Part shown: positions 3,001-25,063 of the stretch, in pieces
Position numbering within the stretch: position 1 is the first letter of the stretch
Layout: each line of letters begins with the position of its first letter
Source: Candidatus Bathyarchaeia archaeon
GTDB lineage: Archaea > Thermoproteota > Bathyarchaeia > Bathyarchaeales > Bathycorpusculaceae
Length of the DNA stretch: 64,000 bases
Assembly: GCA_038873195.1 (NCBI GenBank)
Contig: JAVZEV010000001.1
Location: forward strand, 62,001 to 126,000
Direction of reading: 5' to 3'
Notes under the pieces: generated by a model
What the model was told of the DNA's origin: nothing
The model's input: only the letters and a program-made list of their open reading frames with translations
Databases searched by the model: none
Translations under genes and position numbers: made by a program

Positions 3001-4061
3001 AATACGTTTCTGCTTGGCGTCCTTCTGACCATGTTTTTAAGCCTGTAGAGGAGATGGGCTGGCCTTTAATCGCTCCACCACCTGCAGACGACTATTTCAA
3101 TGCAACTCACAAAATTCTAAAATGGGGTTGTACTTATCTCATGCCTGAAGGGGAAGAATGGAGTTTCAACGGAACAGGTCAGCTAAGCCAAATTCAATTC
3201 AAAATAATCAAAGAAGTAAACGAAACCTATCCAATAGCAAATGCATGGCTCTCCTTTGACCCTGAATGGACATCTCTATACCAACATCCATTAGGAGTAA
3301 TAACACCGCAGATGAAATCTGGATACTTTGAATATTCATTGCCTACCGCTCCGCCACCACCAAAATACGTGATAGGAATCGTTACTATGTATGGCTTAGA
3401 GCCAGGAGAAAGGATAATTCTTTCTTTCCTATGGAACACTTCAGATATTATGCCTAGAAACTATATGTTGCTAGCAGAGGCAACAGGTGTTGTGTACGAT
3501 GAAGATCCAGAAGACAATGTCTATTATGACGGAATAATTGTTGTTGTGCCAGGTGTAATTCGCGATATAGCAATAATTGACATAGTAGTTCCATCAAACA
3601 AAGTGTATCAGGGATGGGTTGTTAACATAACTGTGACTGTTGCGAATTTAGGAAACGCAACTGAAAACTTCACAGTCACATTATACTATGATAGCGTAAG
3701 CATATCAACTGAAACAGTATATAACTTGGAGCCTAACGCGTCCACTCAGCTTATTTTCAGCTGGAATACTACACATGTGCCATACTGTCACAACTACACC
3801 ATAAAAGCTGTTGCCAGTGCACTTTCTGGAGAAATCGATGTAGACAATAACACTCTTGTTTATGGCTCAGTAAAGGTTAAAATGATGGGCGATGTTAACG
3901 GCGACGAAAAAGTTTCTATGGAAGACATAATGCTTATCGTAGATTCTTTCGGTTCTTATCCTGCACATCTAAGATGGCTTTTCGACGCAGACCTTGACCA
4001 AGACGGAAGAATCACTATGGGTGACATAGTTCTGGTCCTTTTGAACTTTGGAAGCTGTTAA
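3..4061 (+). CDS. Multidomain secreted surface protein with cohesin-like module and C-terminal dockerin (5' end outside window)
   Basis: The reading frame is already open at base 3 with no stop, so the gene begins before the window; 1352 residues are visible. In order by bases: the tail of a CARDB-like domain (3-190), a glutamine-amidotransferase/DUF4350-like Rossmann domain (190-830), CARDB (840-1140), a second such Rossmann domain (1155-1780), CARDB (1795-2095), a beta-sandwich region with 'SSNGLITF' (2100-2600), a CARDB interrupted by a cohesin-like module (2614-3555, module about 2797-3345), another CARDB (3565-3880), and a dockerin (3885-4055) with 'GDVNGDEKVSMED' and 'DLDQDGRITMGD'. Many N-x-T/S sequons fit an extracellular glycoprotein. 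The Rossmann domains probably serve binding or structure, since no catalytic triad is evident. Cohesin plus dockerin in one chain suggests a scaffold or linker subunit. Domain names are by eye. Confidence 0.85.
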   Translation, partial: DGASVDSITIPELPVGSSYTLSYLWTPTTQGMYNITAYAPPVLGEELTTNNLAKRSVIVLSIAVKNVLVYTDDYYFTPSLRYAIVALDNLGINYTHYADDPWGFGVALTSQPWDLVIVDHCNYYALGSYWTEIEEYVRNGGLLVLSTFDIDGSNSEPTTLWNTLGVQWVSDMWSPESVYRWDPSHSIFTFPNTVGDLTSYIEGYADDGDHVIATTGTSIAGFTMSPIGSYAAIVVGNTYPTVLFTYILDEFRYDQDGDGKLDAIELWENAIVYLAKGYEHDLAVSLDVPKVLELGDSTLLNATVQNRGANNEINVELQLFVNGTLVDFVLIPELATGTSFTFSYSWIPTAEGGYNITVYARPVPGEEFTKNNVISRIVEVKILPDILIVADDDASYKIRGTSLPEFEYALTINGYEYFVWQESSMGRPPLEFLLKFKLVIWTCGDYWGWAVDSVDAETLEAYLAMGGNILLEGEDIGYDHYMDRFMVNVAHAIYQVDNTGAYGLTVTDPTHPVTQGLPTTFTWLQDPPYDDGVFPTNGGFEVIRYADTLWTAVTVFDGTETGYGSVVYYAFPIYCLWQSERDMLIINSVGWLTPSEHDLKVSLTAPTFLELGNSTLLNATVQNRGLNNEINIEFSMLINGTVVYTTLIEELPVGNSYSINYLWAPSETGNHNVTVYASPIPGETNIANNVVTRWTHVFFYRRSYISHQWVGGGSSMGWHGDDMSWQYTLPFNFPYYEMNYKTIYISSNGLITFTSPDASPSNSVTDLSRKLAIAVAWDDWITNDPYDICVWKNSTHVGIRWFVRAYGSTTTANFEAILSREGIIQCNYASCDGLVTATIGISNGAGHIIAEDVTDLDFIHTIIFLPYPSRHDVAVVDVVPFANEVRAGESVNIDVVVENQGNFTEDFTVTLYALEQLLSTSTTHTTLSGYPTISVINPGPDGYPSEWTAGPPRYLGTSDFIFYSNETSVDAMFFINVTVYDVERIKAWQIGIIYDSSILEYVSAWRPSDHVFKPVEEMGWPLIAPPPADDYFNATHKILKWGCTYLMPEGEEWSFNGTGQLSQIQFKIIKEVNETYPIANAWLSFDPEWTSLYQHPLGVITPQMKSGYFEYSLPTAPPPPKYVIGIVTMYGLEPGERIILSFLWNTSDIMPRNYMLLAEATGVVYDEDPEDNVYYDGIIVVVPGVIRDIAIIDIVVPSNKVYQGWVVNITVTVANLGNATENFTVTLYYDSVSISTETVYNLEPNASTQLIFSWNTTHVPYCHNYTIKAVASALSGEIDVDNNTLVYGSVKVKMMGDVNGDEKVSMEDIMLIVDSFGSYPAHLRWLFDADLDQDGRITMGDIVLVLLNFGSC

Positions 4062-4077: not shown

Positions 4078-4365
4078 AAAATTATTGGGTGCTCAAAATA
4101 TTGACTAATGAGCCCTTATTGAGTTTTTAGGCGTATAAAGATTGTTGAGAAGTTAGGAATGCTGATGATTTATAGACTTTGGAATGTTGTATTTTGCTTA
4201 TTTTGCTCATGTATGTGTATCATCTAAAATACAAAAATCCATTAGATGAAGGAAATATGGAAAAAAGTTTCACAAATCTTATAAACTTCTGAGAGTTTTA
4301 AAAATATTTTGCGTAAACGCTATGTTACACTTGCGTTTATGCTAAAAAGGATAGGAGAAAGGAAA
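4078..4365. other. Intergenic region with promoter of the beta-helix gene
   Basis: No credible ORF is seen. An archaeal TATA-like box, CTTATAAAC, lies near 4277-4285, and a strong ribosome binding site GGAGAAAGG lies at about 4354-4362, just before the ATG at 4366. The AT-rich remainder shows no repeat or RNA that I can support. Confidence 0.5.
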
Positions 4366-7300
4366 ATGAAAAACCAAATAGCAGTAGTAGCGTTGCTTCT
4401 GATACTCCTTTTAAGCGCTATACCGATTATGCTAACGACAAAATCTGCTGAAGCAACCCCTAGTGGACCAAGTCTGATGGTAGATGACACACAAAACAAA
4501 ATCAACGCTATGATCGGTGCCAAAAGTGGGTCAAATTTTACAGATAAAGCCACAGCAACCAATGTTGGTAGCGAAGAGCTAAATGGACTGCTTCTAGGCG
4601 TCTTCGCTAAAGAGATAGGCGGGACACTTACTCCAGGAGATGGCACTGGCTGGTGGTCTCTTGATGGTGTGATATGGTATCTTGCTCCGCCACTTGAAGT
4701 TTCTTCATACTTGGACTATCAAGTGGAAGTTATCACTGGTCCTGTTGGAGGAGTCACTTTACCTGTCGGGGCTTTTATGACACAGTATGGAAAAGTTCGG
4801 TTCAATAGAGACGTAAGCAATCAGGTTGAGTTTTTGGTGGTGATATTTAAAGACGTTAATGGTGACCGTAAGCTATCTGATGTAGACATTGTTGTCTCTA
4901 GTGGAGATTTTCCAGTGAAGCTTGACATCTGGATTTGGTGGACGACTGAAATTGAAGATCAAGGACTGTTTTACGACACAATTAAAGCAGCAATAGACGC
5001 TGCAAGCACGGGGCAGACAATTTTTGTCTATGATGGAACATACAATGAAGCCTTGTACATTAACAAAAGCCTCACTTTGAAAGCCGCAAGCAATCCAGTC
5101 ATCACTGGCGCGCAAATGCGTGCTACTAATTATGGAAACAGACAAGCTACAATATTTGTTGAGAACGCCTTAAATGTTGTTTTGGAAGGCTTAGATATAG
5201 AGGGTCAAGGATTAGGCATACCTTCTGGTACTAAAAGCTATGCAATATTATATGAAAATTCCAGTGGATCGATCAGAAACTGCATAGCGTCTCCAAACAC
5301 AATAGGCGATATGTATTCAGCAGCGGTGGCTTTCTGGGATAATTCTGTTGTAACAATTGAGAAGTGCTTAATCAGAAATTTTGGAAGAATTGGCATATAC
5401 TCAAACAATGCTACTTCTATAATACAAGATAACGAAATAATTGGACAGGTCTACAGTCTAGACAATCAAGTTAACTATGGAATTGAGATCGAAGACTACA
5501 CCGGCCCCTCTGTAGCTGAGATAGTCAGAAATAAAATATACGATTGTAACAACACTCATCCAAGTCCGCTTTGGTCATCCGCAGCAATAATTGTTGATAT
5601 TTGGATGTATTACAATCAAGGCAGCATGATGCCCTCCACAGTTACCATAGAAAACAACGAAATTTACAACAACTACGAAGCAATTGAAATAACAAAAGGC
5701 ATGTTATCTCATGCCCATTATAACAATATTTACAACAACCCATATGGCATCTTCAACTGGGGCGCCAATTACAATGCAGACAATGCAACATTTGATGCGC
5801 GTTTCAACTGGTGGGGCGACACAAGCGGACCTTACCATTCCACAACAAACCCGTCTGGACTTGGAGGCGAAATTGGTGATAATGTTAAATATAGTCCATG
5901 GCTTGGAGCATCGTTTGCAACTACTCCAAGAACTTATCATGTAAACCCAACGGGTACTATTCAAGAGGCTGTCAGTGAAGCAAGTTCAGGAGACACCGTG
6001 ATAGTCCACTCTGGAACATACGATGAACAAGTAGTAATTGCTAAGAGTTTGACTCTTCAAGGCATGGGCGACAGTACGATTGTAAAGCCTTCTTCCGCAG
6101 GGAAGCTTGCCACAGTGCTTGATGGGCATTGGTGGGGCACATCTAAACAAGTAGCCGGCATTATTGTTGCAAACGTTGCCACAGGAAGCGGTGTCATCGT
6201 GAAAAAACTGAAAATAGACGGGGAAAGCGTGACTACTCGACCAACAGGCGCAGATTTCGTCGCTGGAATCTTTTATCGCGAAACTGGCGGTTTGATCGAC
6301 TCAGTCAATATTACAGGGATAACCGTTACCGATGCGGGTACTGCAGTAAGAGGTTACGGCATCTATCTTTCTGCGGTAGCTAATACCGTCGCTGTTGAAA
6401 TAAAAGGCTCCACGCTAACAAACTACGACAAAAACGGCATCGATGTCCACGGTAGCAAACTCACAATTAACATTCATGACAACAACTTTACCGGTCGAGG
6501 ACCTTTGCCTTCCGGAGACGAAGTCCAAAATGGCATTGTTGTTATGGACGGTGCGAAAGGAACTATAAACCGTAATAGGATAAGTGACCACATTTACACT
6601 CCCGAAACTTGGTGGGGTGCTGGAATCCTGTTTATGGATAGCAGTGGTTCAGCCACTAAAAACATCATAACTAACTGCCAAATTGGAATTATCTATCAAG
6701 ACAGTAGCGGTTCAGCAGACGGAAACATCGTGAACGGTGGAAGCGTCGGGCTATTAGGCATATGGGCACAGTACACTAAAGCAGGAACTTGGCTGGTGAC
6801 TTTTACAAGCAATACTATAAACGGAGTTCATGATACGTCAGGATATGAAAACGCAGCAACAGGTGTTCAAAGCTGGGCTGAAAATGCGTTTATCACTGTA
6901 AAAATAGAAAATAACCAGCTTTCAGGCGACAGACTAACATCTGCTGACGGCATTTTTATCGGGGACTTTCCAGAATACGAGCCTGCTGGTGAAATAACCG
7001 CCACAATAACGAACAATATCGTTTCTGGATGGCAGCACGGCATCCGTTTGGTAAGCTCGATAACTGCTGCAATTATTAAGGGCAATACTATTTTCAATAA
7101 TCTCGGACACGGCATCTACGTCGAATCAGCTGTAGATGTTGCTGGCGTCTACGTTAACCTCAATAACATACAAAGCAATGATGAATACGGCATTTTGAAC
7201 GGCGGAACAGGCGTTCTTGACGCACGCTTCAACTGGTGGGGCGACTCCACAGGTCCTTATCATGAAACAAGCTGGGAGTACATGGGTGAGCCTTATGGTC

Positions 7301-8037
7301 CACATTTCGGTTTGGGAGACAACGTAAGCGACTACGTCCTGTACGACCCATGGCTTGAGTATTACGTGCCGCTTCCACAACCCACAATGCGAGTGGAACC
7401 AAGCAGCTATCAAGCTCTTAGGTTGAACGAAACTTTCAATATTAATGTAACCTTAAGCAACCTAAGTGTAGGTTGGAGAACGGCGGGTGTTCAGTTTAGG
7501 CTACAGTTCAATAGCACATTACTAGAAGTCGTAAGCGTAATCGAAGGACCTTTCATGAAACAACATGGTGAAACACTATTCTTTTACTACGTTGAATATG
7601 GAGATCCTTTCTATGGAGACAATATAATTGTAGGTGTCGTTCTACTACCTCAAGAAGAAGGTGAATGGACGGAGTGGCCTAGCGGTACAGGAACAATAGC
7701 TACTATAACATTTCGAGCGAAGTATCAGCCTAGAGGGCTAGACAAGCCAAAGTCCACTTGCGATTTGAAACTTGATGACACTTTAATAATGAGTAGTGAA
7801 GGAGAACGAATTACTCACAGCGTTCAACATGGATACTACGAAATTCTGCCAGTTCACATTGCAGATGTAAACTTTGACCGAAGAATCAACATGGATGATC
7901 TGATGATAATTGTAAACGCTTTTGGCGCTTATCCTGGGCATCCAAGATGGAATCCAATCGCAGATATAACTTTAGATGGAAGAGTTTCAATGGGCGACAT
8001 AATTGAAGTTGTGACAAACTTTGGGAAAGTCTACTAA
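4366..8037 (+). CDS. Secreted parallel beta-helix protein with cohesin-like domain and C-terminal dockerin
   Basis: The start is ATG 4366, which follows GGAGAAAGG and begins an uninterrupted signal peptide (MKNQIAVVALLLILLLS); an upstream in-frame start would bury it. The product is 1223 residues. After an N-terminal domain come two right-handed beta-helix (PbH1/NosD-like) blocks at about bases 4960-5900 and 5940-7350. Each closes with the same motif, 'FNWWGDxxGPYH'. A cohesin-like beta-sandwich follows (about 7380-7850) and then a dockerin (7857-8034; 'DVNFDRRINMDD', 'DITLDGRVSMGD'). Beta-helix domains of this kind commonly bind or cleave polysaccharides, but no catalytic residues can be assigned, so enzyme activity is unproven. 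The dockerin suggests recruitment to a surface complex. Confidence 0.88.
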   Translation: MKNQIAVVALLLILLLSAIPIMLTTKSAEATPSGPSLMVDDTQNKINAMIGAKSGSNFTDKATATNVGSEELNGLLLGVFAKEIGGTLTPGDGTGWWSLDGVIWYLAPPLEVSSYLDYQVEVITGPVGGVTLPVGAFMTQYGKVRFNRDVSNQVEFLVVIFKDVNGDRKLSDVDIVVSSGDFPVKLDIWIWWTTEIEDQGLFYDTIKAAIDAASTGQTIFVYDGTYNEALYINKSLTLKAASNPVITGAQMRATNYGNRQATIFVENALNVVLEGLDIEGQGLGIPSGTKSYAILYENSSGSIRNCIASPNTIGDMYSAAVAFWDNSVVTIEKCLIRNFGRIGIYSNNATSIIQDNEIIGQVYSLDNQVNYGIEIEDYTGPSVAEIVRNKIYDCNNTHPSPLWSSAAIIVDIWMYYNQGSMMPSTVTIENNEIYNNYEAIEITKGMLSHAHYNNIYNNPYGIFNWGANYNADNATFDARFNWWGDTSGPYHSTTNPSGLGGEIGDNVKYSPWLGASFATTPRTYHVNPTGTIQEAVSEASSGDTVIVHSGTYDEQVVIAKSLTLQGMGDSTIVKPSSAGKLATVLDGHWWGTSKQVAGIIVANVATGSGVIVKKLKIDGESVTTRPTGADFVAGIFYRETGGLIDSVNITGITVTDAGTAVRGYGIYLSAVANTVAVEIKGSTLTNYDKNGIDVHGSKLTINIHDNNFTGRGPLPSGDEVQNGIVVMDGAKGTINRNRISDHIYTPETWWGAGILFMDSSGSATKNIITNCQIGIIYQDSSGSADGNIVNGGSVGLLGIWAQYTKAGTWLVTFTSNTINGVHDTSGYENAATGVQSWAENAFITVKIENNQLSGDRLTSADGIFIGDFPEYEPAGEITATITNNIVSGWQHGIRLVSSITAAIIKGNTIFNNLGHGIYVESAVDVAGVYVNLNNIQSNDEYGILNGGTGVLDARFNWWGDSTGPYHETSWEYMGEPYGPHFGLGDNVSDYVLYDPWLEYYVPLPQPTMRVEPSSYQALRLNETFNINVTLSNLSVGWRTAGVQFRLQFNSTLLEVVSVIEGPFMKQHGETLFFYYVEYGDPFYGDNIIVGVVLLPQEEGEWTEWPSGTGTIATITFRAKYQPRGLDKPKSTCDLKLDDTLIMSSEGERITHSVQHGYYEILPVHIADVNFDRRINMDDLMIIVNAFGAYPGHPRWNPIADITLDGRVSMGDIIEVVTNFGKVY

Positions 8038-8624: not shown

Positions 8625-8737
8625 TACGATAACCTGTGTTTTAAATGTTTCAGTATTTTTAATAGAGTCGTGTTCAACTTTATATATTTGATGTATACCT
8701 TAAAAGATGCAAAATAATGTTGGTGAGGTTTCAAGAT

Positions 8738-9988
8738 ATGATTAATTGGAAAATTCTTCCGTTGGTCGTCTTTTTTTTGGGTATGTTCTATTTTGGGTCG
8801 TTGCGTATTGGGAATTTGCATATGAATGTGCTTTCTCTCGCAAGCGGTGTAGTTATACGTGTTCCAAGTGACTACTCGAGTATAACTGAGGCTTTGGCTC
8901 ATGCCTTGGATGGTGATACAATTATTGTTGAGCCCGGTACATATAATGAATATCGTATGGAGGTGAATAGAACAGTAAAGATAATTGGGATGGACCGTGA
9001 GGGAGTTATAGTTAATGGTGGTGGAACAAGCGATTTTATATTTAAGATCAATGCTCATAATGCTGTGATAGAGAATTTGACATTACAAAACACGATTCTG
9101 ACTGGGGAGGTTGCTTCTGCTGTTTATCTGTACAATGTTATGAACGTGACGGTAGATAATTTGATAGTCAAGAATGTTTTGCATGGGCTTCAGCTTGTAA
9201 GATCGAATTTTTCTCAGATTTTAAATAATCATTTTATGGAATGTAATCGTGGCGTTTTTATTCGAGATTCAAGTTGTAACAGCACTATTGTTGGTAATAC
9301 CTTTGAAAATGTCTCTATGGTTATTTACATTGCCGATTCTAATTCTCAGTATACTAAAGTATTTCATAATAATTTTGTGAGCACGAATCTAACAGTCTTT
9401 GCTGCGACGAGCTTCTTTGATGGTGGATATCCGTTAGGTGGTAATTATTGGAGCAATCACTTTGCTGTGGATTTTAATCATGGGGTCGAGCAGAATTTGA
9501 TTGGAAGTGATGGCATTTTTGATGAGGCATATCCATCATTTGATGACCCGTTGGATAGATATCCATTGGCACATCCTTTCTTGATGTTTGATGTGGATGT
9601 TGAGGATAAGAGTTTTGAAGTGTATATTTCTTCGAATGCAACTTTAAATTCCTACAATCTCAATGTCTCTGAAAAATCGTTAGTTTTGATTCTAAATGGC
9701 GTTGCAGGAAGTAGTGGTTCTTGTAGAGTGGTAATTCCCAAAGAATTGCTGTCTTCTGGTTCTCTGGGTGACTGGAGTGTTTTGTGCGATGGGGAAAACG
9801 TGCCCTATTTGTATCCGTATGAAGACGAATATTTTACATATTTGTATTATAGTTATGTGCAATCTACGTCTAGCAAAATTCAGATAAATGGAACATGGGT
9901 TGTTACTGAGTTTTCTGTTTTGACGGTTTTGTTTATGTTTTGCATTTTGCTTATCATGGGAATAAAGATTAAGTGTTTGAATGTGTAG
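8738..9988 (+). CDS. Membrane-anchored parallel beta-helix (NosD-like) surface protein
   Basis: ATG 8738 is chosen because GGTGAGG lies 9 bases upstream and the signal peptide then starts directly (MINWKILPLVVFFLGMF). The product is 416 residues. The N-terminal half, beginning 'VPSDYSSITEALAHA', is a right-handed beta-helix with PbH1-type repeats such as 'NNHFMECNRGVFIRDSS', ending in the 'GGNYWSNH' motif typical of NosD/periplasmic copper-binding repeats. The C-terminal part is a beta domain, followed by a single hydrophobic helix (residues about 388-410) and a short basic tail, so it is anchored in the membrane facing outwards. It lacks dockerin and cohesin. Ligand unknown. Confidence 0.82.
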   Translation: MINWKILPLVVFFLGMFYFGSLRIGNLHMNVLSLASGVVIRVPSDYSSITEALAHALDGDTIIVEPGTYNEYRMEVNRTVKIIGMDREGVIVNGGGTSDFIFKINAHNAVIENLTLQNTILTGEVASAVYLYNVMNVTVDNLIVKNVLHGLQLVRSNFSQILNNHFMECNRGVFIRDSSCNSTIVGNTFENVSMVIYIADSNSQYTKVFHNNFVSTNLTVFAATSFFDGGYPLGGNYWSNHFAVDFNHGVEQNLIGSDGIFDEAYPSFDDPLDRYPLAHPFLMFDVDVEDKSFEVYISSNATLNSYNLNVSEKSLVLILNGVAGSSGSCRVVIPKELLSSGSLGDWSVLCDGENVPYLYPYEDEYFTYLYYSYVQSTSSKIQINGTWVVTEFSVLTVLFMFCILLIMGIKIKCLNV

Positions 9989-10005: not shown

Positions 10006-10722
10006 GTGTTTGGTTTGAAAAAGACTGAAACGCTGGCTGTGACTCTTTTGCTTCTTCTTCTTGGTTTGTCTTCGATTGTTATTGCTTTTCAAACAGTTAC
10101 AAAATTTAATCTCGTCAAGAGTTTTGACCGAGCTGGCACATGGAGTGTTTCCGGTACTTTGGATGTGGGAGAGTCATTGGCTTTCATGATTTTTCCTGAT
10201 TCTCAATGGAGTTTTCTTGTTCCGTCGGAGGAAGAGTATCCAGTTGTTATTAACATGAGTGTTTTAACTCCTGATTATGGAATGGCAAATCTTTCCTCCA
10301 TTTATACTGTTACTTATGTTCAATCAGGTCTTCTTCCTTCGATTATTCTGTCTCCGGTCAACTTTAGCATTGTCGAAGTGAACACGACGTGTTTGGAGTT
10401 TAGTTCTTTTTATACTACTGATGAGGTTGCTGGTGTTTTGTTTATTGGAGACGTGAAGGTGAGTGGTAATTTTACGGTTGTTGTTGATGAAGCGTCCATT
10501 AAAGAGAATTTCTATCCTAGTGAGCGTCCGCCTCGTAAGTTAACTCTTCGGGGGTATATTCGCGGTGTTGAATATCCTGGTATTCTGTTTTTGCCTGTGG
10601 GATGTGTTTTTGTTTCTTTAAGTATGGTTGTTTTATGGTATGGGTTTAGACATAAGAAAGTTGAAAAGCGTGGGAAGATTAAAAGCGCAAGCGTCACGCG
10701 GATTTTCTGCGTTTTGAAATAG
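10006..10722 (+). CDS. Predicted two-pass membrane protein, 238 residues
   Basis: An N-terminal hydrophobic segment (residues about 11-30) and a C-terminal one (about 193-215) flank an extracellular beta-rich region with several N-x-S/T sequons; a basic cytosolic tail follows. It begins 17 bases after the beta-helix anchor gene and is probably co-transcribed. The start may be GTG 10006 or TTG 10015; neither has a strong ribosome binding site. No family is recognised. It could be an accessory of the preceding surface protein (inference from spacing only). Confidence 0.65.
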   Translation: MFGLKKTETLAVTLLLLLLGLSSIVIAFQTVTKFNLVKSFDRAGTWSVSGTLDVGESLAFMIFPDSQWSFLVPSEEEYPVVINMSVLTPDYGMANLSSIYTVTYVQSGLLPSIILSPVNFSIVEVNTTCLEFSSFYTTDEVAGVLFIGDVKVSGNFTVVVDEASIKENFYPSERPPRKLTLRGYIRGVEYPGILFLPVGCVFVSLSMVVLWYGFRHKKVEKRGKIKSASVTRIFCVLK

Positions 10723-10811: not shown

Positions 10812-13208
10812 ATGTACAAAAAACTTTTGATAGTTAGTTTGGCATTATTTGCTTTGATGCCTCTTGTGATTTCGCCGAAAATAGCATTTGCTGCCATAAC
10901 AAACCCCATGGAGATTGTCGCGGACACGATTCCTGGCGGTGGCTATTACACAATGGATCCTGCAAACTGTTATGATACGGCAAGCGCTGAACTGCTCTTC
11001 AACGTTTACGAAACTTTGATTTTCTTCGACGGCGAAAGATACGACTACTTCATACCACAGTTAGCAACGCAAGTGGTGGTTGGTCCTCCAGCTGTTGGTG
11101 CACCAGCGTACACGAACTATACGCTTTACTTTGAGATTCGTGTTGGTGTGCCATTCCACACATGGAGCAGATCAGACCTTGGCGACTACCATTGGGATCA
11201 GTTTTACTTGACGACTGAGGATGTTGAGCACAGCCTTGAACGTTGGATGGTCAACGATTACATTGGTGGACCACAATGGATGATCTATGAGGCTTTGCTA
11301 AGCTGCATGGGTGGAGAGCCAACAGCAGAGTTTGGAACTATGATTGATCAAGCTGTCGAAAGTAACTCAACTCATGTATGGCTAAACGTTGCTAACAGTG
11401 GTCGTGCCACTGGCACTCCTACATCATTCACGCCAGTTCCATTGTTTGAGACTAATCCAGCGAGTCCATGGTATAATCGTCAACGCCCAGCATTCTGGAC
11501 TGAAGCTGCTGCTTTGCCTATAGGCTATCCGTTGAGAGTGCTCTTCCAGGTTCTGTCTCAGTCATGGGCTTCAGTTATGAGTAAGCGTTGGTTGCTTGAG
11601 GTTGTTGACCCGATGGCTGAGGCTGCAGGTCACCCAGTTGGAGAATGGCCTGGAACATGGGACAACTGGACACTCTACCACTGGCCAACCAGTCCACTCA
11701 TCGACCCCTACAACGACTTGCCAACAATCGACTCCATTCCAGGCACTGCAGCTAACCCAGGACTGACATGCGGAACAGGGCCATTCATCCTACAGAGAGC
11801 TGACCCAGGAACCGAATGGTCAGCCGTCAGATACGCTGATTACTGGCGAGGCTGGCCGCTTGATTGGCCAAATCCACCATATCCAGATAGCACATTGCCA
11901 CCTTCCGGTATAAAGCCGAAAGGCTATGTTGACAGATACACTGTTAGACAAGCAGCAACAGCGACCAGAATCGCTGAACTGCAATCTGGCGCATGTGACT
12001 TCTCGGCAATTCCACGTGCACGTGCTGGCGAATTGCACGTAGGTGGCGATAGGAACGGTCCAACACTGTCTGGTATTAGATTAAACTATCCAGTGTTCGG
12101 CTTGGCTGTGGACAGCTTCCACATGACCGTTGACCTTGTACCCACAGACGATAACCGCTACGGAAAAATCTATCCGGCAGACGAGCTTCATGAAGATGGT
12201 ATCCCAAAGAACTTCTTCAGCAACATAAACGTCCGAAAAGCCCTTGCACATCTGATAAACTTCACAATGATAGTCAATAACATCTACTTGACTGAAGGCT
12301 ATCAACCGTATACTGTGGCGCCAACAGGCTTGCCATACGTATACACTGACATTCCACAATACTATTACAGCGAAGAAAAAGCCGCACAATACTTAGATGC
12401 AGCATACTTTGGCGCAACTAAACTTACCAGTGTTGGATTCACATTAACTATTCTCTACAACTCTGGAAACACCAACAGGCAAGCTATCGCCGAACAAGTA
12501 GCTGCCTCATTAAACAAAGTGGCAGGCGACCATGGCTGGCCGTTCCATGGAACAACTGCAGCACCAGCATGGGGTGAATATCTCTCTGCAATGGACGCCC
12601 ACAAACTTCCAGTCTTCCTAATCGGTTGGCTGGCAGACTACGGCGATGTCCACAACTTCCTAACCCCATATGCTCACGGTACAGGCGGAACATTCGCCTT
12701 AGCGCAGAACTACAATAACGCCACAATAACCGCTAAACTGAACGAAGCAATCTATACTCCTGACGGTCCTGCTAGGGGCGCACTCTATCACGATGCAGAA
12801 ATAATGTTCGCGCAAGACGTTCCAACAGTGCCGCTGTCAGTAGCATGGGGAAGAGGCTACATGAGAGACTGGATACAAGGAATGTACTACAACCCGATAT
12901 ATCCAGGCTTATATGCAGCAAACAAGTGGAAGTGGGAAATGACAACAACGCCGGGCGCTGAAGGCTACTTTGTAGGTGACGTAGACTTTGATGGCAGAGT
13001 AAAGATGGATGATGCAATACATGCAGTGAACTCATTCGGTGCATATGCAGGCAAGAGCGGAATGCCAACCTTCCACATAAGATGGAACTTCCGCGCAGAT
13101 GTAGATGACCAACCAAGATACAGATGGCGCGACAGAAAAATCGACATGGGTGACATTGTAGGAATCCTCGCCAACTTCGGCAAAACAAGCGTTCCATGGC
13201 ACACGTAA
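10812..13208 (+). CDS. Oligopeptide/dipeptide ABC transporter substrate-binding protein (SBP family 5) with C-terminal dockerin
   Basis: The 798-residue protein has a signal peptide (cleavage after about residue 27, 'IAFA'), then a family 5 solute-binding domain: 'MDPANCYDTASAELLFNVYETLIFFDG', a 'TTEDVEHSLERW' segment, 'GTGPFILQRADPGTEW' and 'NVRKALAHLINFTMIV'. It ends, instead of stopping after the family's usual C-terminal lobe, in a dockerin (about bases 12963-13180) with 'GDVDFDGRVKMDD' and a second, insertion-bearing repeat 'DRKIDMGDIVGILANFG'. There is no transmembrane anchor or lipobox, unlike many archaeal binding proteins. Downstream lie the two permeases and two ATPases. I infer it delivers peptides or oligosaccharides to this importer while held at the surface by a cohesin partner. 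Confidence 0.93.
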   Translation: MYKKLLIVSLALFALMPLVISPKIAFAAITNPMEIVADTIPGGGYYTMDPANCYDTASAELLFNVYETLIFFDGERYDYFIPQLATQVVVGPPAVGAPAYTNYTLYFEIRVGVPFHTWSRSDLGDYHWDQFYLTTEDVEHSLERWMVNDYIGGPQWMIYEALLSCMGGEPTAEFGTMIDQAVESNSTHVWLNVANSGRATGTPTSFTPVPLFETNPASPWYNRQRPAFWTEAAALPIGYPLRVLFQVLSQSWASVMSKRWLLEVVDPMAEAAGHPVGEWPGTWDNWTLYHWPTSPLIDPYNDLPTIDSIPGTAANPGLTCGTGPFILQRADPGTEWSAVRYADYWRGWPLDWPNPPYPDSTLPPSGIKPKGYVDRYTVRQAATATRIAELQSGACDFSAIPRARAGELHVGGDRNGPTLSGIRLNYPVFGLAVDSFHMTVDLVPTDDNRYGKIYPADELHEDGIPKNFFSNINVRKALAHLINFTMIVNNIYLTEGYQPYTVAPTGLPYVYTDIPQYYYSEEKAAQYLDAAYFGATKLTSVGFTLTILYNSGNTNRQAIAEQVAASLNKVAGDHGWPFHGTTAAPAWGEYLSAMDAHKLPVFLIGWLADYGDVHNFLTPYAHGTGGTFALAQNYNNATITAKLNEAIYTPDGPARGALYHDAEIMFAQDVPTVPLSVAWGRGYMRDWIQGMYYNPIYPGLYAANKWKWEMTTTPGAEGYFVGDVDFDGRVKMDDAIHAVNSFGAYAGKSGMPTFHIRWNFRADVDDQPRYRWRDRKIDMGDIVGILANFGKTSVPWHT

Positions 13209-13455: not shown

Positions 13456-14529
13456 ATGGGATTAAAAGAATATGTGATAAGGCGACTAATCCTAGTATTT
13501 CCCATAGTTTTAGGCGCAATACTGCTCGTTTTTGCAATTACACAAATGTTCCCAGCTGGTCAAAGAGCCGCATTATACGTAAGAAGCGAAAGAGACATTG
13601 GAAGACTTGACGAGTTCGTTGCTAAGTACCATCTAAATGCCTCAGCCCTCGACCAGTTCGCTAACTGGTTCTCGGAAGTTCTTCAGGGAAATTTTGGGTA
13701 TTCACGAAACCCATATGGAAGAGGACCTGTTCTCCAAGTAATGTTGCAGAAATGGCCTGCCACAATCGAATTAGCGATCTGTATTGCACCTATAACTATA
13801 CTATTAGGAGTTTTTTTGGGAGTAAAATCCGCCGTATACAGAGATAAACCGTTCGACCACGCAACCCGCCTGTTATCCATAAGCGGTTACTCTGTGCCAT
13901 CATTTTGGCTTGGCATGATCCTTATCGCTATAACAGTCGCATTAACTGGTTGGATGCCAATACATCGCGTTTCAACAGAATATAAAAACATAGTTTCTGA
14001 CTCCTCCAAGTTTACAATTTATACCGGATTCTATACAGTTGACGGAATATTGAATGGGCTAGTTAATGGAAGACCATATGGTTACGAGGTAACATTAGAC
14101 GCAATAAAACACATGATTCTTCCAGTGATTGTAGTAACCACAATTAATGTTGCCGGTTTAATTCGACTAATGCGTTCAAGTATGCTTGAAGCCCTTACTA
14201 AGGGCTATATAATTACTGCCAGAGCAAAAGGCCTGAAAAGAAGTGAAGTAATCAATAGACACGCGCGAAGAAATGCTCTAATCCCTGTGGTAACAGTTTC
14301 TGGTATGATGGTCGCAGGATTAATGAGCGGCCTTGTAATCACAGAAACTGTCTTCAATTTTAGTGGTATAGGCCAATGGGCAGCGGCGGCAGCAACAGGA
14401 GTCGGCGGAGCACCTGATGTACCCTCAATTGTGGGATTCACCTTTTTCACCGCGTTCCTCTTTATCTTCTCAAACCTTATAGTAGATGTTTTATATGCTT
14501 ATATAGATCCAAGAATCAGGCTGGGATAA
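13456..14529 (+). CDS. dppB: Dipeptide/oligopeptide ABC transporter permease (DppB/OppB family)
   Basis: The 357-residue protein starts at ATG 13456 after GGAGAAAGGG. It has the DppB N-terminus ('YVIRRLILVFPIVLGAIL'), about six transmembrane helices, and an EAA loop contacting the ATPases ('ITARAKGLKRSEVINRHAR'). Its ending, 'DVLYAYIDPRIRLG', is characteristic of the family. An extra loop between helices around residues 170-215 is slightly longer than in bacterial DppB. It is followed after 3 bases by the partner permease. Specificity cannot be read from the sequence; the symbol is by family. Confidence 0.92.
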   Translation: MGLKEYVIRRLILVFPIVLGAILLVFAITQMFPAGQRAALYVRSERDIGRLDEFVAKYHLNASALDQFANWFSEVLQGNFGYSRNPYGRGPVLQVMLQKWPATIELAICIAPITILLGVFLGVKSAVYRDKPFDHATRLLSISGYSVPSFWLGMILIAITVALTGWMPIHRVSTEYKNIVSDSSKFTIYTGFYTVDGILNGLVNGRPYGYEVTLDAIKHMILPVIVVTTINVAGLIRLMRSSMLEALTKGYIITARAKGLKRSEVINRHARRNALIPVVTVSGMMVAGLMSGLVITETVFNFSGIGQWAAAAATGVGGAPDVPSIVGFTFFTAFLFIFSNLIVDVLYAYIDPRIRLG

Positions 14530-14532
14530 GCT

Positions 14533-15690
14533 ATGGTCTTTAAGAGATCAAAGAAAGATGCAGTTAAGACGCCTTCACCAAGAATTAAAGAATTGAAGTT
14601 CATGTTAAGTCGTGTGGTTAAGAGCCCCTTATCTCTTCTAGGCAGCGCAATAATAATATTCTATGGGGTTATGGCGCTTATGGCTCCGGTGCTTGCACCT
14701 CCTAACCCATCTTGGGATATACAAGGCTATCCGGGAAAGAGTCCTTTTATTATTCCACGTGTTACCTATACGATGCAACCTCAACCTCCAACACCACAAA
14801 ACCCGTTTGGGCTAACTCCTGAGGGCTATGACATTTACTACGGCTGCGTATGGGGATCAATTACTGCGTTCCGTGTGGGCGTATATGTTGTAGCTTTATC
14901 TCTTATAGCTGGTTTATCAATAGGTCTAGTTGCAGGATATTACGGTGGGATAATAGACGAAATTCTGATGCGGTTCACAGATATTATTATCGTATTTCCA
15001 GGGCTCATATTGGCAATGGCTTTTGCAATAGCTCTACCTCCATCACTTGCAATTACACTTAGAGAAGTATTACCAATCGCTTCTATCATACTCCTTCTTT
15101 TAACTATTACACCACTCCTATCACGCAAGGGAATACGCTGGACATGGATAATATTACAAGATGCAACAATCCTAACTCTTGCTATTTCAATATTGCTTTT
15201 TACCAACAACTTGCCAAACATTACACTGTTATCTTTTGAACTTACAAAACTTGATAAAACCTTGATAGCACTAGTTCTCGTCGGCTGGCCAGGCTACACA
15301 AGAGTGATACGCGGTGAAGTTTTAAGAGTACGAACAGAAGACTACATAGAAGCCGCAAAAGCTGCAGGATGTTCAGACTTTAGAATAATAATGAGGCACA
15401 TTTTACCAAACGCGGTTTATCCGGTCTTGATTTTGGCATCACTTGACATTGGCTCCATCGTGTTAACAGCAGCGGCCTTAAGCTTTTTAGGCATTGGTTC
15501 TGATCCAAACTTTGCTGATTGGGGGCAGCTTGTACAAAAATCTCAAGATTGGATTAGTTCAGGAAACCTGCTTCCCATATGGTATATCTGGGTAATACCA
15601 GGCGCTTTCATATTCGGGTTTTCTCTAGGATGGAATCTACTTGGAGACGCGATAAGAGACATACTAGACCCAACCTTGAGGAGAAGATAA
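14533..15690 (+). CDS. dppC: Dipeptide/oligopeptide ABC transporter permease (DppC/OppC family)
   Basis: This second permease has 385 residues. The N-terminal segment and first helix ('SPLSLLGSAIIIFYGVMAL') match DppC, and the EAA motif is 'EAAKAAGCSDFRIIMRHILPN'-like, followed by 'SFLGIGSDPNFADWGQLV', a DppC hallmark. It is longer than the usual 280-300 residues because of an extra hydrophobic and loop region (about residues 175-235) inside the core between the conserved helices. It forms the heterodimeric channel with the preceding permease. The gene ends 2 bases before the ATG of the ATPase. Confidence 0.9.
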   Translation: MVFKRSKKDAVKTPSPRIKELKFMLSRVVKSPLSLLGSAIIIFYGVMALMAPVLAPPNPSWDIQGYPGKSPFIIPRVTYTMQPQPPTPQNPFGLTPEGYDIYYGCVWGSITAFRVGVYVVALSLIAGLSIGLVAGYYGGIIDEILMRFTDIIIVFPGLILAMAFAIALPPSLAITLREVLPIASIILLLLTITPLLSRKGIRWTWIILQDATILTLAISILLFTNNLPNITLLSFELTKLDKTLIALVLVGWPGYTRVIRGEVLRVRTEDYIEAAKAAGCSDFRIIMRHILPNAVYPVLILASLDIGSIVLTAAALSFLGIGSDPNFADWGQLVQKSQDWISSGNLLPIWYIWVIPGAFIFGFSLGWNLLGDAIRDILDPTLRRR

Positions 15691-15692
15691 AA

Positions 15693-16964
15693 ATGGCGGG
15701 AAAAGCAGAAACTACTCTGAAAATTGAGAATCTGTTGTTAAGATTCTACACCTATGAAGGTGTAGTTGAAGCATTAGACGGCGTAAACTTGGAGATCAAA
15801 CCAGGAGAAATATTAGGACTTGTAGGGGAAACTGGATGCGGAAAGAGTGTAACAAGTCTCTCTGTAATGCAACTTGTTCCAAACCCAGGCGTAATTGAAG
15901 GAGGAAAAATACTATATAACTTGAATGGGCAAATAGTTGACCTAGCAAAACAAAAGGATGACTTTCTAAGACGCATACGTGGTGATGAAATTTCCATGGT
16001 TTTCCAGGAACCGCGAGCATACCTAAACCCAGTATATTCAGTAGAATATCAAATAGGCGAGGTTCTGCTGCAGCACCGAAAGAACGAACTTATAAAAAGT
16101 GCGTTGGAAGAAATAAAAGCTAACCATGCTAAAAAATTGGAAATAAAAATAAAGAAAATTGAAGAAAACATTGAGAGTTTGAAGATGAAAGGAGAAAAAG
16201 AAAACAAGGCAAAGATTGAAGAATTAACAAGAAAAATTGAGAAACTGAAGAAAGAACATCCTCGAAGTTTCACAGTAAGGATTTATGAAAAAATGCTGCG
16301 CAATCCAAACGCTTGGTCCATTAGAATTTTGTTCAGAATACCAATAGTCAATAGATTTAAAAAATGGCTAAAGTTTGCAGTCAGAAAAGAAGTTATCAAT
16401 ATATTACGGGGAATGCAAATAGCTGATCCAGAAAGAGTTGTAGACATGTACCCTCATGAACTTAGTGGCGGAATGGCTCAACGTGTTATGATCGCTATGG
16501 CTCTCGTATGCAATCCGACACTTCTAATTTGCGACGAGCCAACAACAAACCTTGATGTTACTGTCCAAGCACAGATTCTCGAACTGATTCGAGCATTAAG
16601 AGAACAATTCAAGTCGTCCATACTCTACATAACCCACGATTTAGGAGTAGTCGCTCAACTTTGTGAACGTGTAGCAGTCATGTACGCTGGTAACGTTGTG
16701 GAATTGGCAGATGTTAATTCGCTTTTCAGAGAACCGCTTCACCCATATGCTAAGGCCTTGCTTGAATCCATTCCACGACCGGGACAAGAACTCAGATCCA
16801 TTCCCGGAACTGTGCCAAGCTTGATTAGCCCGCCAAGAGGTTGCCGTTTCCATACACGATGCCAATATGCGATGCCAATATGTGAAAATAAGAAGCCATT
16901 GTTCATTGAAGTTAAGAAAGATCATTATGTTGCATGTCATCTTTATGGAGGGTATGACAAGTGA
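15693..16964 (+). CDS. dppD: Dipeptide/oligopeptide ABC transporter ATPase (DppD/OppD family) with coiled-coil insertion
   Basis: The start is ATG 15693, 2 bases after the permease stop; 423 residues. Walker A is 'GETGCGKS', the Q-loop 'MVFQEP', the signature 'LSGGMAQRV', Walker B '[12 protein letters not shown]', and the switch His lies in 'YITHDLG'. The C-terminal family domain has the Cys cluster '[14 protein letters not shown]'. Between Q-loop and signature is an extra, highly charged helical stretch (residues about 130-225, Lys/Glu-rich heptads) absent from typical OppD (about 330 residues). All catalytic motifs are intact, so the insertion is probably an added protruding element of the helical subdomain rather than damage. 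Confidence 0.92.
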
Positions 16965-18052
16965 GCACGTTTATTCATGTAGAAAGACTTAAAAAATATT
17001 ATCCTGTTTTGGGCGGTGTATTTAAGAGAAAAGTTGCTGAGGTTAAAGCTGTAGATAATGTCACACTAAGTATACACAAAGGTGAATGCTTCGGATTAGT
17101 AGGCGAATCTGGTTGTGGAAAGACAACACTTGGAAAAACAATATTGCGGCTGCTTGAGGCTAACGCTGGACACATATACTTAAACGCGCCAGAAAGCGTA
17201 ATTAAAGAAATAAATGCTTTGGAAATGCAACTGAACGAGGCAAAAAAGAAGAAGGCGCCACGAAAAGAGCTATCGTTGCTCAAGAGAAAGTTGAAAAACC
17301 TTTGTGGAGAGTATGATTTAGTAACTTTTAAAGGTAATAAACTTAAAAATCTGCGTCGGCGAATGCAAATTGTCTATCAAGATCCTACCACATCGCTTGA
17401 CCCTAGAATGCTCGTGAAAGATATAGTTGCTGAACCTTTGATAGTACAAGGTATAGCAAAAGGTGCTGAAGCACGCGAACGGGTAATTAAAACCTTGGAA
17501 AGTGTAGGGCTAAGTGCAAACCAGTTATTTAGATACCCGCACGAGTTTAGTGGTGGTCAGAGACAGCGTATAGCCGTTGCAAGGGCAATTGTTACGCATC
17601 CAGAATTTGTTATTTTGGATGAGCCTACATCTGCGGTTGACGTGTCTGTTAGGGCTCAACTTCTCAATCTTTTTAAAGAGTTGCAGAAGGATCTGGACTT
17701 GACATATCTTTTCGTGAGTCATGACCTCAGTATTGTTGAAGTGATTAGCAATAGAGTAGCAGTTATGTATCTGGGCAAGATTGTGGAATATGCTCCAACC
17801 GAAGAAGTTTTTAAGAACGCACTACATCCCTACTCCCAAGCTTTAATAGGATCCGTACCTATTCCAGACCCCTCAAGGCGTAAAGAAAGAGCACCTTTAA
17901 AGGGAGAAGTTCCTAGTCCAATAAATCCGCCTTCTGGTTGTAGATTCCACCCACGTTGTCCATTAGCTATGGATGTTTGTCGAAGGGAGGAACCAACGCT
18001 AGTGGATGTTGGGCGCTCTCATTACGTGGCTTGCTATGCTGTGACCGGCTGA
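16961..18052 (+). CDS. dppF: Dipeptide/oligopeptide ABC transporter ATPase (DppF/OppF family) with insertion
   Basis: GTG start 16961 overlaps the preceding TGA by 4 bases (GTGA), implying translational coupling. The 363-residue protein has Walker A 'GESGCGKTT', Q-loop 'IVYQDP', signature 'FSGGQRQRI', Walker B 'FVILDEPTSAVD', the switch His in 'FVSHDLS', and C-terminal 'CRFHPRCPLAMDVC'. An extra basic coiled-coil segment of about 50 residues (about 75-125) sits between Walker A and the Q-loop. It pairs with the DppD-type subunit to energise the importer. Confidence 0.92.
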   Translation: MSTFIHVERLKKYYPVLGGVFKRKVAEVKAVDNVTLSIHKGECFGLVGESGCGKTTLGKTILRLLEANAGHIYLNAPESVIKEINALEMQLNEAKKKKAPRKELSLLKRKLKNLCGEYDLVTFKGNKLKNLRRRMQIVYQDPTTSLDPRMLVKDIVAEPLIVQGIAKGAEARERVIKTLESVGLSANQLFRYPHEFSGGQRQRIAVARAIVTHPEFVILDEPTSAVDVSVRAQLLNLFKELQKDLDLTYLFVSHDLSIVEVISNRVAVMYLGKIVEYAPTEEVFKNALHPYSQALIGSVPIPDPSRRKERAPLKGEVPSPINPPSGCRFHPRCPLAMDVCRREEPTLVDVGRSHYVACYAVTG

Positions 18053-18092: not shown

Positions 18093-18122
18093 ATAGAAGA
18101 TAATTCCGGAATGCTTAAATTC
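18093..18122 (+). promoter_or_regulatory. Promoter element shared with the 30908 surface gene
   Basis: The 16-base string ATAGAAGATAATTCCG followed by a TTAAAT box occurs here and again at 30838-30867, each upstream of a large secreted-protein gene (55-80 bases before its start codon). The TTAAAT part fits an archaeal TATA box; the upstream part may be a regulator site or an extended BRE. Confidence 0.45.
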
Positions 18123-18170
18123 TCAAGTAGTCTTAGTAATCTTGCTGAAAAAGAAAGGAGAAAGGGGAGT

Positions 18171-20075
18171 ATGAGAAAAGACATTCTTAAAGCAATATCG
18201 ACTACGATTGTTGCTCTACTAGTAGCATCGATGCTCTTAGGACTTCGAATTCTTCCAGCACAAGCAAGTCCCGTAGAATTCAAAATAATTAATCCAGGTC
18301 CAGATGGCTATCCAGCAAAATGGACTGCAACGAATGTTGATCCTGCGTCCATTGGAACAGAGCACTTTAACTTTACTGGAGACCAATTGGGCAAGACCTT
18401 CTTTATTAATGTGACAGTTCAAGATGTCGCAAATATGAAGGGCTGGGCTATTGGCATAATCTACGATAATACTACTTTGAAGTATAAATCAGCGTGGCTA
18501 CCAACAGATCATGTTTTCAAACCAGCTGCAGACGCGGGCTGGACGTTAGTTCAGCCAGCCGTGGTGATTGCGGATGTCGACGCTACCCACAAGGAAATTC
18601 AGTGGGGTTGCACCTACATTATGGGTGAACCCGAATGGAGTTTCTCAGGTTCTGGCGTCCTCTGCCAAATTCAATTTGAAGTATTGAAACAAGTGAACAG
18701 GTTGAGTCCATTGCTAACAACCTCCTTCGGCTGGGATCCAGATTGGACAAGCGTCTATTATCATCCATCTGGAACAGAGGTGCCTACATGCAGACCAGGT
18801 TACGTAAAAATCGAATGGGTTCCGCCAACAGAAAAACCAACCTTCTACTTGAAACCTGCAACGTACAAGGCAAACGCAATAGATGAAGATGTAGCCATTG
18901 AAGTCTGGGTTAGAAGCGTAAGTGCAGACTGGAACATCATAGCCTTCCAACTTGCAGTGTGGTTCAACACAACATTCCTGGAGCCCACCACCTACGAAAC
19001 TGGAACATGGCTTAATGGCTTCGTAAACGGCAACGAAGGCATATTGTATGTAGCTCAAAATGACTTCCACGGTGACCCTGCACTTCCTTACTGCTATAAT
19101 AAGTGGTTCTTAGGTGCAGTCATAATACCTGACCCAGATACCGGGCAATATGTCCCACCCTTCCCAAGCGGCGAAGGAATGCTCTTCCGAATACACTTCA
19201 AAGCCATCTACCAAACAACCTTCCCCGTGGAAGACTGGACAACCCTCCAAGTGAAAGAAGAAGAAGTTTGGGACATGTTCGGATTACACGTTCCAATAGG
19301 TATATCCGAATACTGCCAATACAGAGCCCCCGTTAGGACGCTAGGATTAGACATAGACCTCTATACACAGTACACCTTCCCATACGGCGGACAAGGAAAA
19401 GGCAACCCAAGCGACATGTTCGGACCACAAGCCGAAGTGATTCTCTTTGCAAGAGTTGTCTACAACGAATGGCCAGTGCAAATGAAGCTTGTTGCCTTTG
19501 AAATTCGCCACGGCGAATTCTACATCTACAGAGAAGCCTACACCAACGAAGATGGCATAGCCATGGTTAAAGTCAGAATACCTTGGCCGTGTGTTGATCC
19601 GGTTGGACGAGTCTTCGGTGTTTGGGACGTCATAGCAACCGTTGAAGTCGCAGAGCAAAAAGTGAATGACACACTAAGCTTCAAAGTCTGGTGGTTGGCA
19701 GAAATAACAAGCGTCAAATCTACAGAAGATTTCTACATCCAGAGTAAACAAGGCTTTGATGCGACCTTCGTGATTGAATATAGAACATACAGAATGCAAA
19801 CCATACCAGTAGTACTGACAGTGACAGTTTACGACGAATTAGGATTCTTTGTGGGATACGCTACATTCACAACAACAGTAGGATGGGGCGAATACCACTG
19901 GTGCGAATTCAAGAACTACACAAAGACATTTGAAATACACATTCCGTCTAACGCTGTGGTTGGAGTAGCAACAGTCTACGGAAACGCCTACGACGATCTA
20001 CCCTGGAATGGTGGAGTTCCATACTGTCCAGAGGCCTCCAGTACCTTCTTAATCAAGAAGCCTGGCGGTCCATAA
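18171..20075 (+). CDS. Secreted protein with two cohesin-like modules and macroglobulin-like domains
   Basis: ATG 18171 follows GGAGAAAGGGG and begins the signal peptide MRKDILKAISTTIVALLV; 634 residues. Module 1 (bases about 18280-18815) opens with 'INPGPDGYPAKW' and contains 'KGWAIGIIYDNTTLKY' and 'WGCTYIMGEPEWSF'. Module 2 (about 18830-19330) is a second cohesin-like beta-sandwich ('FQLAVWFNTTFLEP', 'NDFHGDPALPYC'). The C-terminal third holds Ig/macroglobulin-like domains, and its end resembles a segment of the next protein ('GVPYCPEASSTFLI' against 'DGYPYCLEKNATFII'). There is no membrane anchor, dockerin or sorting-like tail, so attachment must come from another protein or another interaction. 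It lies directly after the ABC importer operon. Confidence 0.85.
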   Translation: MRKDILKAISTTIVALLVASMLLGLRILPAQASPVEFKIINPGPDGYPAKWTATNVDPASIGTEHFNFTGDQLGKTFFINVTVQDVANMKGWAIGIIYDNTTLKYKSAWLPTDHVFKPAADAGWTLVQPAVVIADVDATHKEIQWGCTYIMGEPEWSFSGSGVLCQIQFEVLKQVNRLSPLLTTSFGWDPDWTSVYYHPSGTEVPTCRPGYVKIEWVPPTEKPTFYLKPATYKANAIDEDVAIEVWVRSVSADWNIIAFQLAVWFNTTFLEPTTYETGTWLNGFVNGNEGILYVAQNDFHGDPALPYCYNKWFLGAVIIPDPDTGQYVPPFPSGEGMLFRIHFKAIYQTTFPVEDWTTLQVKEEEVWDMFGLHVPIGISEYCQYRAPVRTLGLDIDLYTQYTFPYGGQGKGNPSDMFGPQAEVILFARVVYNEWPVQMKLVAFEIRHGEFYIYREAYTNEDGIAMVKVRIPWPCVDPVGRVFGVWDVIATVEVAEQKVNDTLSFKVWWLAEITSVKSTEDFYIQSKQGFDATFVIEYRTYRMQTIPVVLTVTVYDELGFFVGYATFTTTVGWGEYHWCEFKNYTKTFEIHIPSNAVVGVATVYGNAYDDLPWNGGVPYCPEASSTFLIKKPGGP

Positions 20076-20115: not shown

Positions 20116-20191
20116 AAATGCGCAAGAATTAAATTCCACAATGTTTATCAATCATTCCAACTATAACTATAAACAAGGAGAGGGGGCATCT

Positions 20192-23905: not shown

Positions 23906-23929
23906 GGGCTAAAAATATATTTGTTTGTG

Positions 23930-25063
23930 ATGAAATTGCACAGTGCCAAGTCTTACCACAGAATTTCTGTTTCATTAATATTTCTCATTCCCTTACTGTT
24001 CCTAATAACTATGTATCCTGTTGCTTCTCAGGAAACTAAATATGCCACGGTGAGGATTGTAAACCCTCTCACTGGCAGTAGCAAATTTATTTTGCATGCG
24101 ACTGAATATCCAATAAATAGCACTATTACCGTGGATTTCTATATTACTGAGGCTATTAATACATACGGTTGGCAGTTCTATATAAAATGGAACAACAGTG
24201 TTATAAACTATCAGAAGGCATGGATTCCCGATGATAACATGCTTAAGGAAGCTGTTGATAGTGGTGCCGAACTCATTAAAGTGCCCCCTGCTGTAGAGAT
24301 TGAGGGTGACACTGGTTACCTAAAATATGGTGCTACTGCTCTTTATACGGGAAACGATCCACCCTTCTATCCTATTAACATTACTGAACCAAAATTATTG
24401 TGTAAAGTGAATTTCACAGTTGCTGTAAGCCCTGGCGAAGGAGAATACTATACTACTAACATTTTTATTATAAAGATGATATCTGGTTCCGGTGAGTCTC
24501 TGGACTCCTTTGTTTTTGTTTATCCCTCAACAGAAAAGAAAGAAATTAAAGCTGAACCTGCTGTTGTTTGGATATTGGGCCTTAACGCGGTACCCCCGAT
24601 AACGCAAGATATAGCAGCTACGAATGTAGTTTTATCCACTTCAAAGATTTATGTTGGTGAATACTTGAACATGACAGCTTACTTCAAAAACTATGGAAAT
24701 GACCTTGAATCCTTCAATTTTACTATATCAGTAGGTGACATGCAGCTTGTCAGGAGTTATATGACTTTGCCTCCAGGCGAGGAAGACCATTTTATTTATA
24801 ACTGGCCAGTGCCCGAAAATATGCATACTGGGAAATACAACTTAACAGTTTATGTGGAACCGTTAGAGTTTGAAACTGAGACAGCGAACAATCTCTACAT
24901 TTTAACCATAAACATAGAAAAGAACCTTGTTGGTTTTGAATACGCAATGTGGCTTTTCTCGGTTTGGTTTTCGACGCCTCTTGGCATGTTCTTTATAATT
25001 TATTTAGTTCTAGCTGTTGGACTTTTTTCGACGCTTGCTATTATGCGGAGAATAAGGCGATAA
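23930..25063 (+). CDS. Membrane-anchored protein with cohesin-like and CARDB domains
   Basis: The 377-residue protein (ATG 23930; TTG 23921 is possible) has a signal peptide ending near 'PVASQE'. A divergent cohesin-like domain follows (residues about 30-200; 'INTYGWQFYIKWNNSVINYQKAW', 'YLKYGATALYTGNDPPF'), then a CARDB domain (about 215-330; 'VYVGEYLNMTAYFKNYGNDLESF'-like). A C-terminal hydrophobic helix (about 340-368) and basic tail 'RRIRR' anchor it. It lacks a dockerin, so it could be a cell-bound anchoring subunit for dockerin proteins encoded alongside (inference). Confidence 0.8.
   Translation: MKLHSAKSYHRISVSLIFLIPLLFLITMYPVASQETKYATVRIVNPLTGSSKFILHATEYPINSTITVDFYITEAINTYGWQFYIKWNNSVINYQKAWIPDDNMLKEAVDSGAELIKVPPAVEIEGDTGYLKYGATALYTGNDPPFYPINITEPKLLCKVNFTVAVSPGEGEYYTTNIFIIKMISGSGESLDSFVFVYPSTEKKEIKAEPAVVWILGLNAVPPITQDIAATNVVLSTSKIYVGEYLNMTAYFKNYGNDLESFNFTISVGDMQLVRSYMTLPPGEEDHFIYNWPVPENMHTGKYNLTVYVEPLEFETETANNLYILTINIEKNLVGFEYAMWLFSVWFSTPLGMFFIIYLVLAVGLFSTLAIMRRIRR

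Follow-up and report, generated by a model that had tools for sequence, protein, structure and literature searches.

How is the substrate-binding protein (SBP) of an ABC importer kept at its permease when it has no membrane anchor of its own? The question is raised by a gene at positions 10812–13208 of the window, the 64,000-nucleotide stretch of a Candidatus Bathyarchaeia archaeon genome analysed here, that encodes a 798 amino acid SBP of family 5 with a C-terminal dockerin. An initial annotation of this DNA proposed that contact between this dockerin and the product of one of the cohesin-like genes nearby stands in for the missing tether. All of the features described below lie on the plus strand and, unless a contig or locus is named, their coordinates are positions in the window.

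The binding protein and its C-terminal repeats

The protein encoded by 10812–13208 matches the Pfam SBP_bac_5 model across residues 308–626 (E = 9e-38) and also resembles solved haem- and dipeptide-binding proteins, with a best PDB E-value of 3e-15. Its signal peptide (residues 1–27, positions 10812–10892) ends in an A-x-A cleavage site, AFA followed by A, and there is neither a lipobox cysteine nor a C-terminal transmembrane (TM) segment, signal peptides and TM segments having been assigned throughout from hydropathy and inspection only.

The dockerin repeats start around 10 residues beyond the end of the SBP core. The module as delimited by a local profile, an AF2 model, Foldseek and alignment (residues ~720–794, positions 12969–13193) comprises two repeats, GDVDFDGRVKMDD... 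and ADVDD-QPRYRWR-DRKIDMGDIVGILANFG, in the second of which alignment places a seven-residue insert, QPRYRWR, within the calcium-binding loop (13110–13130). The insert is common, with substitutions, to the SBPs encoded in the window, at C1:135k and in the sister species (G001). Both repeats have the form of an F-hand calcium loop followed by a helix, with aspartate at positions 1, 3, 5 and 12, and the aspartate ladder is complete when the module is aligned with 17 other dockerins from this and the sister genome.

The Pfam Dockerin_1 model finds no match in the SBP among hits listed down to E = 0.1, probably because of the insert in loop 2, whilst scoring above cut-off in neighbouring proteins such as those encoded by 96–4061 and 20141–21790. 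A match to this model reflects the sensitivity of the model, however, and is not a defining trait of the dockerin fold. A local profile of 18 dockerins, the SBP's own among them, matches the tail at 1e-25 in a scan of the genome and, when compared with the PDB, retrieves type II dockerins first (2y3n, E = 9e-16; 2b59, 2.5e-12). The AF2 model of the module (pLDDT 80) has two helices and its top 15 Foldseek matches are all dockerins, mostly from type II complexes, 2y3n_B among them (TMt 0.80, rmsd 1.8 Å). The module is also as constrained as the SBP core: comparison of the window gene with that of the sister species gives dN/dS values of about 0.20 for the dockerin and 0.17 for the core. A low-complexity, aspartate-rich artefact was considered and rejected, being contradicted by fold, profile and selection alike. 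The reading given in the initial annotation, of a signal peptide, a family 5 domain and a two-repeat dockerin on a protein with no lipid or TM tether, is thus upheld by inspection, Pfam, the local profile, AF2 and Foldseek, and the predicted fold runs counter to the objection anticipated there, that the repeats might not fold as a dockerin at all.

Might the repeats nevertheless be a calcium-stabilised tail, or an export or sorting tag, that binds no cohesin and lies close to cohesin genes by chance? The inserted loop and the Pfam miss could be taken in this way, as could the presence of similar repeats at the ends of many unrelated secreted proteins of the same genome. The match of the predicted fold to dockerins speaks against it, as does the distribution described below, in which cohesin genes accompany dockerin-bearing SBPs and are absent from loci encoding TM-anchored SBPs, and we judge it decidedly improbable.

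The importer and the cohesin genes

Directly downstream of the SBP gene are genes for the permeases OppB (13456–14529) and OppC (14533–15690) and the ATPases OppD (15687–16964; the listed ORF opens at 15579 but the start is probably near 15687) and OppF (16961–18052). All four were identified by Pfam and between them they encode two BPD_transp_1 domains and two ABC_tran plus oligo_HPY pairs, the domain set of an Opp-Dpp-Nik importer. The importer recognised in the initial annotation is therefore complete, spanning 13456–18052. Transporters of this type and their family 5 SBPs also carry nickel, haem and oligosaccharides, and archaeal members of the SBP family may transport oligosaccharides. 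Neither the SBP nor OppB–F reaches the NCBIfam equivalog cut-offs. RNA folding in the gap between the SBP gene and oppB is no stronger than in shuffled sequences (z = -0.65). The divergence of the SBP from characterised proteins, evident in the best PDB E-value above, would suit a surface receptor or scaffold component that has ceased to transport, but with OppBCDF conserved alongside in several genera and the core under purifying selection, there is very little likelihood of this.

Upstream of the SBP gene lie genes for a beta-helix/NosD protein with a cohesin and a C-terminal dockerin (4309–8037), a NosD/beta-helix protein with a C-terminal TM segment (8717–9988) and a small protein with TM segments at both termini (10006–10722). 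The last two are conserved in position, sitting between scaffold genes and the SBP gene in both the window species and its sister. Beyond oppF are found, in order, a secreted protein with two cohesins and no C-terminal TM segment (18111–20075), a protein with PKD repeats and a dockerin (20141–21790), an adaptor-scaffoldin-like protein with three cohesins, CARDB and a dockerin (21862–23871) and four cohesin proteins that end in a TM helix. Two of these four contain a cohesin (23921–25063 and 25073–25870), the third a cohesin and an Ig-like domain (25997–27058) and the fourth two cohesins, InlB-B repeats and an Ig-like domain (27218–29545). Further downstream, 30887–34759 encodes a surface protein with CBM96, PKD and InlB-B repeats and a C-terminal TM segment; large TM proteins are encoded at a similar site in G001, G117 and G120. 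Elsewhere in the window (48082–51906), RNA polymerase subunit A is unsplit, with Rpb1 domains 1–5 in a single 1274 amino acid ORF, as also occurs in some Thermoproteota lineages.

Three of the cohesin genes in the window pass Pfam and eight are recognised by local profiles, most of the cluster cohesins having a long N-terminal INPGPDGYP extension and being missed by Pfam. A profile of these INPGPDGYP-type cohesins matches type II cohesins in the PDB (3l8q, 5e-9; 2bm3, 3e-7), so that dockerin and cohesins are both, by sequence, nearest to type II. The AF2 model of the 25997–27058 cohesin (pLDDT 94) retrieves cohesins from rank 1 onwards, including Archaeoglobus fulgidus 2xdh, and is a predicted jelly-roll beta-sandwich homologous to solved cohesins. 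Profile and predicted fold thus agree with the description of these neighbours as cohesin-like and in part membrane-anchored.

Recurrence of the cluster and exchange of anchors

A full-length profile of the dockerin-bearing SBP was run against 256 genomes of the class and the loci were then retrieved, an approach that performed far better than a single-sequence scan of contigs with this SBP, which gave one distant relative. Sought in this way in related genomes, as the initial annotation had proposed, the fusion proved to be present in several genera. Dockerin-SBP, OppBCDF and cohesin genes occur together in the window genome (G000), G001, G123, G117, G015 and G190, the last of which belongs to another order of the class. 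These clusters span four genera of the family plus one that lies beyond the order, and two further genera have degenerate dockerin tails; in G120 and G054 such a tail has the same context as the dockerin-SBP clusters. In the sister species both gene order and domains are kept, and in G015 a protein of SBP-CARDB-dockerin type adjoins a 237 amino acid TM cohesin. Recurrence in other genera rules out a one-off fusion confined to the window genome and, together with the conservation seen in the sister species, a chance arrangement: the dockerin-SBP cluster is real and functional-looking.

Linkage to an importer is not obligatory, since dockerin-SBPs without Opp neighbours are found twice in the window genome and once in G105. 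A second dockerin-SBP of the window genome (L059:4853–7978, at C1:949.8k; 1041 amino acids) has the order SBP-dockerin-cohesin-dockerin, with a Cys-rich insert in the last dockerin, and adjoins glycolytic genes, with no permease gene alongside. Of the 162 genomes of the order, 80 contain matches to the local dockerin profile, numbering at least 30 in some of them, and small TM-anchored cohesin genes often adjoin dockerin genes.

Members of the SBP family that have no dockerin are anchored in the membrane instead. An N-terminal TM segment that looks uncleaved is found in G007, G186, G187, G277, G370, G424, G465, G474 and others, in proteins that stop where the dockerin would start, and also in the complete SBPs retrieved from beyond the class; a C-terminal TM segment is found in G133, G140 and a further SBP of the window genome (C2:162k). 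At these TM-anchored loci no cohesin or dockerin match was seen even at E < 1, whereas every dockerin-SBP cluster that the contig ends leave whole encodes a membrane-anchored cohesin. In a strict count, restricted to Opp loci with at least ~2.5 kb on both flanks and HMM-confirmed dockerins, and hence leaving out several TM-anchored loci that stop at contig ends, cohesins accompany six of six dockerin-SBPs (including G190, which is cut immediately after its first cohesin gene) and none of nine TM-anchored SBPs, one arrangement in 5005. A wider count gives 8/8 against 0/10 (Fisher p = 2.3e-5), although such values overstate the association because the loci are linked by descent. The most parsimonious reconstruction on the SBP phylogeny has three changes of dockerin state, at least two of them strongly supported, so the pattern is not the history of one clade alone, even if independent events are few.

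The SBP of the sister species is itself a mosaic. Its signal peptide (95% amino acid identity) and dockerin (65–76%) resemble those of the window gene, whilst its core, approximately residues 100–720, is nearer to the 949k paralogue of the window genome: in 40-residue blocks, nucleotide identity to the paralogue is 66–93%, mostly 79–93%, against 53–80% to the window gene. Receptor cores would thus seem to be exchanged, with the dockerin remaining a fixture of the cluster. The same pattern would result, however, from a recombination tract that ends at the point where similarity falls, and the swapped segment may reach no further than the dockerin for the simple reason that the dockerins of the paralogues are too divergent to recombine; the mosaic is thus supportive rather than decisive.

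Could the dockerin instead hold the SBP at a distance from the membrane, in an outer scaffold such as an S-layer, a shed complex or a zone where the cell touches particles or other cells, making it a capture reservoir or an adhesin and not a tethered partner of OppBCDF? The existence of cohesin-dockerin adaptors and of a secreted cohesin protein lacking a C-terminal TM segment (18111–20075) would fit, as would the orphan dockerin-SBPs far from any Opp genes and the many adhesin-like domains in the cluster (CARDB, PKD, InlB-B, CBM96). We think it unlikely all the same, given that each untruncated cluster encodes a membrane-anchored cohesin, that the SBP genes lie directly beside oppB and that membrane anchors are otherwise the rule in this SBP family.

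A proposed tether and its relation to known systems

The observed domains, predicted folds, conservation, anchor exchange and co-occurrence with membrane-anchored cohesins point to a tether beside OppBCDF. In the likely scheme, the SBP would be exported and its signal peptide removed, after which its calcium-binding dockerin would dock, presumably in a calcium-dependent manner, into the cohesin of a membrane-anchored protein encoded a few genes downstream, either directly or via the cohesin-dockerin adaptor (21862–23871). The SBP would thereby be kept at the cell surface close to OppBCDF, with the dockerin taking the place of a membrane anchor. The tether put forward in the initial annotation is strengthened by the interchange of dockerin and membrane anchors, by cohesin genes beside the dockerin form only and by an anchored cohesin in every uncut cluster; what does not stand is its novelty at the level of the fusion.

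The purpose suggested at that time, nutrient capture, can be kept but overlooked the gene at the head of the cluster. Positions 1–4061 encode the C-terminal part of a subtilase whose gene starts upstream at C1:59489, the window beginning at C1:62001. The full product (2190 amino acids) is secreted, with Peptidase_S8 (3e-55; catalytic motifs VDTGI, HGTH and GTSMA present), CARDB repeats, a single cohesin and a dockerin at its C-terminus, and no other S8 peptidase was found in the genome. A dockerin-subtilase heads the cluster in both the window species and the sister species, and in G105 one adjoins a dockerin-SBP. As the subtilase has a dockerin too, the scaffold probably puts a protease beside the putative peptide receptor, and the likely purpose becomes proteolysis as well as capture: the subtilase, docked into the layer that holds the SBP, would supply peptides to it. 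An M28 peptidase domain is found on another dockerin protein elsewhere in the genome. Two otherwise different proteins (L061:3265–6102 and L060:1105–2283), one of them an M28 peptidase, have near-identical Cys-rich C-terminal dockerins, HTPPCILCPHNPNYDVDGNSKVDMGDI, suggesting recent module duplication or conversion. More tentatively, the whole may be a protein-directed, cellulosome-like machine in which the dockerin-subtilase, perhaps with the dockerin-M28 peptidase, cuts, the dockerin-SBP catches, anchored cohesins hold both at OppBCDF and exchangeable dockerin-SBPs share one importer.

Like the clostridial cellulosome, the cluster has near-type II modules, surface-anchored cohesins and a multi-cohesin adaptor with a dockerin, the 21862–23871 product having the three cohesins and dockerin of a scaffoldin. 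It differs in its TM-helix rather than SLH anchors, in a cargo of importer subunit and proteases and in that no X-module was seen. None of the scanned dockerin proteins has a glycoside hydrolase domain, peptidases of types S8 and M28 being present instead, and a true cellulosome was rejected on this ground. TM-anchored archaeal Opp/Dpp SBPs share the SBP family and OppBCDF gene order but have a membrane anchor in place of the dockerin, and no cohesin genes. The cohesin fold is shared with the non-cellulosomal cohesin/dockerin system of A. fulgidus (2xdh), for which we know of no link to a transport operon. That system was described by Bayer 1999 (cited in PMC9012536). Dockerin-bearing peptidases (S8/C25) on a cohesin scaffold are also part of the cellulosome-like complex of the Cloacimonadota Ca. 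Stygibacter (PMC8542988), which is bacterial and for which no importer subunit is described.

The closest precedent comes from ANME archaea, probably a different archaeal lineage, in which dockerin-bearing NikA/OppA- and TroA-type SBPs are reported to be common (Chadwick et al. 2022, PMC9012536). These too are ABC-importer SBPs with dockerins in cohesin-rich archaea, and surface attachment has been suggested for the S-layer/dockerin proteins of ANME, so there is a precedent for the fusion as such, and the statement in the initial annotation that no described transport system so organised was known can hold at the level of the operon only. In the parts of PMC9012536 available to us the fusion is given as a trend only, and a conserved cluster of SBP-dockerin, OppBCDF and anchored cohesin, anchor exchange and protease linkage are not described; a literature search with most subscription journals outside its reach found no paper describing the operon-level arrangement.

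For the non-cellulosomal cohesin-dockerin pairs of archaea, to which no purpose had long been assigned, the proposed tether offers a concrete and testable role. Our analysis suggests that an ABC importer may use a detachable, non-covalent receptor anchor, which would allow one permease to be served by exchangeable receptors, held beside the enzyme that makes its substrate.
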